Shown here piece after piece: positions 25,828 through 28,770 of a stretch of DNA of 34,424 nt (position 1 is the stretch's first letter; each line of letters begins with the position of its first letter). The notes below the pieces were generated by a model. That model was not told the origin of the DNA and did no database searches. It saw only the letters and a program-made list of their open reading frames with translations. The stretch is from the NCBI GenBank assembly GCA_016234345.1, contig JACRFG010000034.1, positions 1 to 34,424 of the forward strand, in the 5' to 3' direction. Position numbers and translations under genes: made by a program. Source of the DNA: Candidatus Jorgensenbacteria bacterium (GTDB taxonomy: Bacteria > Patescibacteriota > Minisyncoccia > UBA6257 > GWB1-50-10).

Positions 25828-27507
25828 ATGCTCAAGGCTTCAAAAGACCTCGAAGAGCAATTATTAAAACAGCGACGGCAAGCCGAAGAAAATGACGCTA
25901 AACGCAGAGCCGATCGTTTAGGACTCGCTTACATCGATCTTATTTCGGTTAAGGTACCCACGGAAATAAAAGCTATGCGGCTTGTTCCTGAAGAAGAAGC
26001 AAAAAGGGCACTGCTTGTCCCTCTTCAGGTACTCCGTAAAAAACTTATTGTTGCCGCATTCGACCCCGATATACCTGAGGCTAAAAAAGCTATTGAAAAA
26101 CTTAGGAAAATATACGAAACCGAGGTTGCTGTTGTTTCCATGACAAGCCTTAAACACGCGTGGTCATATTACCACTATGTTATTAAAGAAGAAGGTGAAA
26201 TTAGCGGCAAAATAGAAATAGACGAAACAAAACTTCAGAGCCTCCAAGCGACCATCAAAAATCTGGAGCAACTCAAAGAAACCATCAGATCATTCAAGAG
26301 TCCGCTCGTGTCGCAAACTCTGGAAATTATAATTGCCGGAGCTTTATCGCTTAAGGCGTCTGATATCCATCTTGAACCCAACGACGAACGCGGCGCAATC
26401 AGATTACGCATTGATGGGCTCTTGCATGCCGCTTACGAAGAGTTTACTCCAGCAACTTATCATTCAGTCGTCACGCGCATAAAACTCCTCTCGAATTTGA
26501 AATTGAATATAACCGACCAACCGCAGGACGGCAGATTCACCATCGGCCTCAAGGATCGGGATATAGAAATAAGAACTTCGGTTATACCATCGGAATACGG
26601 CGAAACAGTTGTGCTCAGAATTCTCGATCCTCTGGCACTTAAGGTTAATTTGGAGGAACTCGGCTGGCGACCGGACGATTTAGCTATCGTAAAGGCTGAA
26701 ATTGCCAAACCAAACGGCTTGATACTCAATACCGGACCAACTGGATCTGGAAAAACAACAACCCTCTATGCTTTCTTAAAATACGTGTTCAGACCGGAAA
26801 TTAAAGTGATCACCGTAGAAGACCCAATAGAGTATCATCTGGACGGCATTTCACAAACCCAAGTCGACCCTGGCGCCGGCTACACTTTTGCATCAGGCTT
26901 ACGTTCAATTCTAAGACAAGACCCTAACGTCATACTCGTCGGCGAAATAAGGGATAAGGAAACGGCCGAAATTGCTATGAACGCGGCCTTAACCGGACAT
27001 ATCGTATTTTCCACACTACACACAAACGATGCGGTCGGAGCAGTACCAAGATTAATCGATCTCGGCGCCAAACCGCAGATATTAGGACCGGCTCTCGCCT
27101 TAGTTATAGCTCAACGCCTGATCAGAATACTCTGTCCACAATGTAAAACGACAAAACCCAACGATTCTAAATTCAAAACAAAAGCCGAGGAATTTCTGAA
27201 AAATCTCCCGTCTCGAGTCGACCGAACGCTTTATAAGCAATTATCTATCTACGAACCGAAAGGATGTGATCAATGTGGAAGTTTAGGTTACCGCGGGAGA
27301 ATTTCGATATTCGAACTTTTCGTGGTAAATGAAAATATAGAACAAGCAATCTATGCCAATCCTACCGAATTAACCTTAACCGACTTGGCAAAAAAGCAGG
27401 GCATGACTACAATGCAGGAAGACGGAATTTTGAAAATGTTCATGGGGATTACAAGCCAAGCCGAAGTCGAACGGCTAACCGGACCAATTAACTGGCTTAA
27501 GGACTAA
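25828..27507 (+). CDS. Type IV pilus assembly/type II secretion ATPase (PilB/GspE family)
   Basis: Walker A GPTGSGKTTTLYA, ITVEDPIEY, RSILRQDPNVILVGEIRDKETAEIAMNAALTGHIVFSTLHTND; CxxC zinc motifs CPQC/CDQC. Confidence 0.95.
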   Translation: MLKASKDLEEQLLKQRRQAEENDAKRRADRLGLAYIDLISVKVPTEIKAMRLVPEEEAKRALLVPLQVLRKKLIVAAFDPDIPEAKKAIEKLRKIYETEVAVVSMTSLKHAWSYYHYVIKEEGEISGKIEIDETKLQSLQATIKNLEQLKETIRSFKSPLVSQTLEIIIAGALSLKASDIHLEPNDERGAIRLRIDGLLHAAYEEFTPATYHSVVTRIKLLSNLKLNITDQPQDGRFTIGLKDRDIEIRTSVIPSEYGETVVLRILDPLALKVNLEELGWRPDDLAIVKAEIAKPNGLILNTGPTGSGKTTTLYAFLKYVFRPEIKVITVEDPIEYHLDGISQTQVDPGAGYTFASGLRSILRQDPNVILVGEIRDKETAEIAMNAALTGHIVFSTLHTNDAVGAVPRLIDLGAKPQILGPALALVIAQRLIRILCPQCKTTKPNDSKFKTKAEEFLKNLPSRVDRTLYKQLSIYEPKGCDQCGSLGYRGRISIFELFVVNENIEQAIYANPTELTLTDLAKKQGMTTMQEDGILKMFMGITSQAEVERLTGPINWLKD

Positions 27508-27525
27508 AAAATGCATTTTTAATAA

Positions 27526-27704
27526 TAAAAAGCACCCCACCCTAAGATCTGTGGGCAATTGCCTTACGGCATGTTTCGAAAACTTTTCTGAAATGAATTT
27601 CAGAAAAGGTAGGATATTCCCGAGGAGTTCTCCAGCGTAAAGCCAGGGAGTCCTGAGACGTGAGGATGATATCCATATGCCCACAGATCTTAGTTTAGGA
27701 TGCT
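27526..27704 (-). ncRNA. Putative free-standing structured ncRNA, family not identified
   Basis: Closing stem TAAGATCTGTGGGCA (27543-27557)/TGCCCACAGATCTTA (27678-27692) extended by AGCA/TGCT ends, internal hairpins at 27583-27608 and 27560-27571, GGATAT/ATATCC helix (27669-27674/27612-27617), own promoter, terminal T-run on minus strand. Confidence 0.8.
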
Positions 27705-27710
27705 GTATAA

Positions 27711-27739
27711 AGTCTAGCATAAATGTAATAATTTGTCAA
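27711..27739 (-). promoter_or_regulatory. Promoter of the putative ncRNA
   Basis: Minus strand TTGACA (27739-27734), 17-nt spacer, TAGACT (27716-27711); +1 predicted at A27704. Confidence 0.7.
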
Positions 27740-27771: not shown

Positions 27772-28770
27772 ATGCAAGAAATAACCAACTTAAATCCGGA
27801 AGATCAAACAGTTGATCTTGCTCTACGCCCCAAAACCTGGGATGAGTACGTCGGTCAGGACAAGGTAAAATCTAACCTCCGTCTAATTATTGATGCCGCC
27901 AAACAACGAAGTGAGGCGTGCGACCATTTACTCTTCTATGGTCAAGCTGGCTTAGGCAAAACCACCTTAGCTTATCTCATTGGCAAAGAAATGGGCGTAA
28001 ACATTAGGCCGACCACCGGACCTACACTAGAACGGGCCGGTGATGTTGCCGCGCTTCTATCAAACCTGGAACCTTATGAAATACTATTTATTGACGAAGC
28101 TCACCGCCTAAACAAACTTGTTGAAGAAATTCTATACCCAGCCATGGAAACGCGCCGCCTACATCTGATTGTCGGAAAGGGCCCTTCAGCTAGAACTTTT
28201 TCCATTGACCTGCCACCATTTACCATTGTCGCCGCAACCACCAAAGTTAATCTTCTCTCCGGTCCTCTTCGCTCCAGATTTGGCGCCACATTTAGACTTG
28301 ATTACTATCAACATTCGGATATAGAAAAAATAATCAAAAGATCAGCTAGCATGCTTAATGTAAGTATATCCTCCGAAGCGGTAGCGACGTTAGCTAAGGC
28401 TGCCCGGTTTACACCACGAGTAGCCAATCGCCTTCTCAAACGCACGCGTGACTACGCCCAAGTAAACAATCTTAAACAAATCGACGAGACGACAATAAAT
28501 CAAACACTCGAACTTCTTGATGTTGATACGCTGGGCCTAGAAAACGCGGACCGCCAACTTCTTACTACCATAATTAAAAAATTCAACGGTGGACCGGTGG
28601 GCTTAAAAGCCTTGGCCGCAGCATTGAATGACGAAGTTGGAACAATAGAAGACGTATACGAACCATTTTTGATGAAATTGGGCTTTATTCATCGCACGCC
28701 AACCGGCCGAATCGCTACCGCTTTAGCCTACGAACACTTAAATCTCCCCAATCGCGCAACTCTAGTTTAA
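27772..28770 (+). CDS. ruvB: Holliday junction branch migration helicase RuvB
   Basis: LRPKTWDEYVGQDKVKSNL, LLFYGQAGLGKTTLAYLI, ILFIDEAHRLNKLVEEILYPAME. Confidence 0.95.
   Translation: MQEITNLNPEDQTVDLALRPKTWDEYVGQDKVKSNLRLIIDAAKQRSEACDHLLFYGQAGLGKTTLAYLIGKEMGVNIRPTTGPTLERAGDVAALLSNLEPYEILFIDEAHRLNKLVEEILYPAMETRRLHLIVGKGPSARTFSIDLPPFTIVAATTKVNLLSGPLRSRFGATFRLDYYQHSDIEKIIKRSASMLNVSISSEAVATLAKAARFTPRVANRLLKRTRDYAQVNNLKQIDETTINQTLELLDVDTLGLENADRQLLTTIIKKFNGGPVGLKALAAALNDEVGTIEDVYEPFLMKLGFIHRTPTGRIATALAYEHLNLPNRATLV

Follow-up and report, generated by a model that had tools for sequence, protein, structure and literature searches.

A structured noncoding RNA family at the gspE-ruvB locus of Parcubacteria

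raiA, OLE and ROOL are orphan structured bacterial RNAs, widespread and well folded, which were brought to light by comparative genomics as protein-free genes and whose function was long unknown. An RNA of the same orphan type, without an Rfam match to any of the three and from other lineages, was found in a contig of 34,424 nucleotides (nt) from a Candidatus Jorgensenbacteria bacterium (JACRFG010000034.1; the whole of this stretch is hereafter called the window). Its noncoding RNA (ncRNA) gene occupies the interval between a GspE/PilB-like ATPase gene and the DNA-repair gene ruvB, on the strand opposite to both. It is a new ncRNA family of Parcubacteria: as far as Rfam 15 and the open literature reach, none of the known families resembles it in sequence or architecture. 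How it acts could nonetheless prove to be of a known type.

Three described RNAs offer the nearest comparisons. 6S RNA (RF00013), a ligand of the sigma-70 RNA polymerase holoenzyme and template for pRNA, shares with the Parcubacteria RNA a length of about 180 nt, a long closing helix and a free-standing, single-copy gene with a strong promoter; unlike 6S RNA, the Parcubacteria RNA has a multi-branched junction, no two-sided central bubble and no score against the 6S model. In Actinobacteria 6S RNA is replaced by Ms1, which shows little sequence likeness and was traced by synteny (PMC9130861). Ms1 is likewise lineage-specific, occurs in genomes without canonical 6S RNA and has a conserved locus, but it is about 300 nt long, has a central bubble and terminal hairpins, and is flanked by HAD hydrolase and oxidoreductase genes instead of gspE and ruvB; RNA polymerase binding, in Ms1 to the core enzyme, has been demonstrated for Ms1 (PMC9130861) and is conjectural for the Parcubacteria RNA. 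Bacterial signal recognition particle (SRP) RNA (RF00169, RF01854) is also a structured housekeeping-type RNA of similar size, but the Parcubacteria RNA lacks the domain IV motif and its host lineage lacks Ffh and FtsY.

Covariation, fold and strand

Searching 60 related genomes with blastn returned a dozen matches with 69-82% identity. Seven blastn homologs, structure-aligned with N padding in the loops as an aid, were used to build a covariance model, R1, from which the window sequence was left out. R1 gave the minus strand of the window 107.9 bits and the plus strand only 41.7 bits, which establishes the minus strand as the sense strand. Covariation was evaluated on an alignment of 81 sense-strand members, which was fitted to the model and is hence biased toward the structure, though the margins are large: standard pairs filled 92.6% of the pair cells, against at most 49% with the partners slid, and the covariation score was 0.591, against 0.203 after shuffling and at most 0.147 with slid partners. 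Changes on both sides were observed in 51 of the 58 pairs, and in a compensatory-change test none of 500 shuffles reached any of the five measures. The same picture emerged from a plain MAFFT alignment of 14 sequences analyzed with RNAalifold (double changes in 30 of 49 pairs), and an independent covariation scan ranked the model pairs as the strongest covarying column pairs. No further covarying pairs or pseudoknot in the scanned alignment were convincing.

The inverted arms at 27526-27557 and 27678-27709 are 32 nt long and 81% complementary, with a perfect 15-mer inside them and 120 nt between them, and a 12-nt palindrome is found at 27583-27594 and 27597-27608. The predicted minus-strand fold has an energy of -80 kcal/mol, compared with -43.6 +/- 4.4 kcal/mol for dinucleotide shuffles, none of 200 being as stable (z -8.25); the plus-strand fold is weaker (-71 kcal/mol, z -6.76). 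In the minimum free energy structure of the minus strand the outer stem is interrupted only by an AA x GG mismatch, and the GGAUAU/AUAUCC helix with its CUCC/GGAG cap and the UGCC-GUAA-GGCA hairpin are also formed. The RNA measures 174 nt to the end of the closing stem, or about 178 nt with the U tail to 27526, and its homologs range from 136 to 205 nt (median 168). An initial annotation of this DNA had described the inverted repeats and the palindrome, the outer stem and both inner elements, and had proposed a stand-alone, multi-branched minus-strand ncRNA of about 180 nt. Repeat analysis confirmed the coordinates, all of the helices reappeared in the predicted fold, the strand assignment matched the R1 scores, and the covariation check that the annotation had recommended upheld the fold through its two-sided changes.

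Distribution, gene order and promoter

R1 matched the RNA in 91 of 120 related genomes, usually in one copy each. With strict filters, a second covariance model, R2, recovered the RNA from 157 of the 289 class genomes, which is a lower bound. Thirty RNA-negative genomes were re-examined: ten were without any RuvB, and in about 13 of the other 20, in which RuvB is present, an unfiltered search detected weak copies (22-79 bits) immediately upstream of ruvB, almost all of them oriented as expected. Because such copies stand beside ruvB in genomes scored negative, the true prevalence exceeds 54%. Named carriers, from which the class name Parcubacteria was inferred, include Parcubacteria group bacterium M10-OD1-1 and a Candidatus Moraniibacteriota bacterium. 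Genomes of the order that were RNA-negative and lacked RuvB are G003, G015, G062, G043, G073, G091, G067 and G093; the entire locus may have been lost in them, since relatives in the family retain both the RNA and RuvB.

Outside the class, only four genomes of a phylum sample gave weak matches (29-47 bits), one of them about 1 kb from ruvB, and hits from outside the class showed nothing consistent against Rfam at gathering or loose thresholds. These weak R2 matches (L249, L251, L252 and L253), one of which lies near a clpP-like gene, are of unconfirmed homology. No model match was obtained at about 70 ruvB loci that lack this RNA, most of them from other bacteria.

The gene order gspE-ncRNA-ruvB is nearly invariant across homologs. 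Among 114 homologous loci, scored within the fetched flanks, GspE was convergent in 106 (106 of the 108 where it was found, with another arrangement in two and absence from the flank in six) and RuvB divergent in 102 (102 of 104, with two arranged otherwise and ten absent from the flank), the median distance from RNA start to RuvB start being about 106 nt. The RNA is probably inherited vertically in Parcubacteria. It is spread through the class at a fixed site, a result that lay beyond the reach of the initial annotation. The neighboring genes may merely reflect a shared divergent promoter region.

A near-consensus sigma-70 promoter lies upstream of most family members: TTGACA occurs in the 70 nt upstream of 70 of the 81 homologs, and 64 of the 81 upstream regions agree with the 12-base consensus at 10 or more positions, compared with 1.4% of shuffled sequences. 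The window promoter, TTGACA-17-TAGACT, spans 27739 to 27711 and has a predicted +1 at 27704, where the closing stem begins. Promoter strength suggests strong constitutive expression of the RNA. Both a promoter and a terminator had been annotated initially; the promoter held, but the terminator is weak, with no standard intrinsic terminator scored by a terminator scan at the ncRNA 3' end. It is the closing stem, not a short hairpin, that precedes the U-rich tail; in some relatives a separate GC-rich sequence resembling a terminator takes its place.

Conserved elements of the RNA

The elements of the RNA and its locus are collected in Table 1. P1, of about 25 base pairs (bp), varies freely by compensation in its outer part, and its inner CUGUGGGCA/UGCCCACAG pairing is almost fixed. 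The P2/P3 arm is the best-conserved part of the RNA, with GG 27652-27653, G 27643, C 27635 and CC 27624-27625 essentially invariant; conservation there falls on GG and CC in the AGGA/UCCU helix, on UUGG..GCUGG enclosing a UUCG-type loop, and on ACUCCUC. Hairpins P4 and P5 vary and are absent from part of the family, and other relatives carry an additional hairpin on the 5' side; GCC-N4..6-GGC, corresponding to P5, was present in 13 of the 14 relatives examined. Between P1 and P2 the 5' side is mostly 1-5 nt long, most commonly 3, and the 3' side has a median of 52 nt and contains hairpins. Inspection by eye suggested a UUAG/CUAA pseudoknot that would pair the P2 loop with the strand following P2; it was dropped because it does not hold throughout the family. 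In the conserved core GCUGG-N4-ACUCCUC the N4 positions covary with the opposite strand, and UCCU pairs with AGGA. This core (minus strand, 27621-27653) resembles the 3' end of 16S ribosomal RNA, GCUGGAUCACCUCCU; the resemblance may be due to chance.

Table 1 Features of the ncRNA gene and its neighbors in the window.
Feature	Positions	Strand	Basis or remark
GspE/PilB-like ATPase gene	25828..27507	+	convergent neighbor of the ncRNA
U-rich tail UUUUUAUUAUU	27520..27530	-	possible terminator, seen in sequence
ncRNA gene	27531..27704	-	R1 covariance-model match 27531-27703; fold z -8.25
P1 3' strand (UGCCCACAG ...)	27531..27557	-	
P5 hairpin, UGCC-GUAA-GGCA	27560..27571	-	predicted fold and alignment
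P4 hairpin, CUUUUCUGAAA/UUUCAGAAAAG, 11 bp	27583..27608	-	missing in some relatives
P2/P3 arm: GGAUAU...AUAUCC, inner AGGA/UCCU helix, UUGGCU(loop)GCUGG hairpin	27612..27674	-	
P1 5' strand: 9 bp, AA x GG mismatch, 16 bp	27678..27704	-	conserved CUGUGGGCA at inner end
-10 element TAGACT, extended TG	27711..27716	-	promoter scan; conserved in homologs
-35 element TTGACA	27734..27739	-	promoter scan; widespread in homologs
ruvB	27772..28770	+	divergent neighbor of the ncRNA

Known families and proposed role

Against Rfam 15, at gathering and loose thresholds (E up to 10), the window RNA gave only chance-level eukaryotic or unrelated matches, and 20 diverse homologs scanned at gathering and loose thresholds gave nothing consistent. 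The Rfam 6S model found nothing in 60 relatives, control genomes being positive, and hit neither the window RNA nor any of the 20 homologs with E values of up to 10 allowed. The large two-sided single-stranded bubble that defines 6S RNA was not seen, the 5' side being about 3 nt long and the 3' side bearing hairpins. SRP RNA was detected in none of 30 genomes with RF00169 and none of 20 with RF01854; the domain IV motif occurred in one of 20 genomes, compared with two chance matches of the reversed pattern; and neither the Ffh M-domain (PF02978) nor the SRP54/FtsY GTPase (PF00448) was detected in 20 genomes, with controls at 14/14. Since the order lacks SRP RNA and both of these protein domains, an identity as SRP RNA is excluded. 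Parcubacteria were reported in 2015 to lack ffh and ffs (PMC4508563). In the genome of the window (G000) and 19 related genomes the entire SRP pathway is missing, FtsY included; the 2015 paper (PMC4508563) names only ffh and ffs.

RNase P RNA was found in 20 of the 20 genomes searched and was rejected as an identity for the RNA, the RF00010 locus lying elsewhere in the genome (G000 C90 5194-5543); transfer-messenger RNA (tmRNA), of which ARAGORN detected none in the window, was rejected as well. These results, with the Rfam search that the initial annotation had called for, bear out its view that the RNA is not SRP RNA, RNase P RNA, tmRNA or a known riboswitch, and the P1-P2 spacing agrees with its remark that, although size and closed rod shape would allow a 6S-like role, the junction is unlike the 6S bubble. 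No described Parcubacteria ncRNA of this kind was found in the open literature, subscription journals and preprints lying outside the search. The assignment to a new family follows from the exclusion of SRP RNA, the failure of the Rfam 6S model to detect the RNA, and the lack of the 6S bubble.

We favor, with a probability of about 0.58, the reading that this is a free-standing, vertically inherited Parcubacteria ncRNA gene whose product would be expressed constitutively and abundantly and would act in trans by binding a protein. Two features suggest protein binding: strict conservation falls on bases in helices and internal loops, at the foot of P1 and in the P2/P3 arm, and none of the exposed loops is conserved well enough to serve as a base-pairing seed. 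A strong promoter, a single copy per genome and retention throughout the class speak for a housekeeping role. The best single guess for the partner would be RNA polymerase, in a 6S/Ms1-like function performed by an unrelated RNA, and the next a ribosome- or RuvB-associated protein. Several points weigh against this reading: protein binding is read from the conservation pattern only, expression is predicted from the promoter sequence, the RNA may be a lineage-specific regulator with fast-changing targets, and the conserved site beside ruvB could signal a role in cis. More tentatively, the RNA might belong to a Parcubacteria-specific core RNA-protein particle, kept throughout the history of the class, that does or replaces a housekeeping task of another machine elsewhere, for example 6S-type transcription control, or a translation or repair step, by a new mechanism.

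Parcubacteria, tiny uncultured bacteria, are among the largest bacterial radiations and have genomes near the cellular minimum. A single-copy RNA at one locus class-wide, with a near-consensus promoter, points to a basic function missed by current annotation, and because the lineage lacks SRP and has no recognizable 6S RNA, it offers a testable entry to the core processes of reduced cells. With the covariance model, the gene could also be annotated across a very large number of genomes.

A specific form of the protein-binding reading, in which the RNA is the functional counterpart of 6S RNA and Ms1, binding RNA polymerase and keeping it inactive, is possible but rather doubtful in our analysis. 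Its size, its closed rod or multi-branched shape with a long closing stem, its single copy and its strong promoter of its own are consistent with this, as are the lack of Rfam 6S hits in relatives under a working control search and the precedent of Ms1 in Actinobacteria (PMC9130861); the lack of any 6S score even at loose thresholds and the short 5' side opposite a hairpin-bearing 3' side argue otherwise. A small RNA regulating mRNAs in trans by base pairing is unlikely. It would also be a free-standing gene with its own promoter, and the conserved AGGA and CUCCUC resemble a Shine-Dalgarno site and its complement, but AGGA and UCCU pair with each other in P3 through the invariant GG and CC, and the P4 and P5 loops and the joining strands are unconserved, P4 and P5 being missing from part of the family.

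Less probable still is a cis-acting element of ruvB or gspE, such as a leader, antisense or terminator device. The fixed site between both genes across the class speaks for it, as does the lack of RuvB in all three RNA-less genomes of the window's own family, a joint loss equally expected from a single deletion of neighboring genes. The RNA is encoded opposite to both genes from a promoter directed away from ruvB, it ends near the gspE stop with no conserved overlap, and one genome has a diverged second copy far from gspE and ruvB (L106; G090 C6:9843-9978). A strongly diverged SRP RNA, for which only the failure to find a canonical one speaks, is very improbable, since there is no SRP to serve and the domain IV motif does not rise above its reversed-pattern background. 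The idea that the locus is made of chance palindromes, is a repeat or encodes a small protein can be set aside almost entirely: an 81-codon open reading frame (27475-27720) does run across the RNA in the window, but it is unconserved, homologs vary in length and their longest sense frames have a median of 34 codons, and the covariation is strong.
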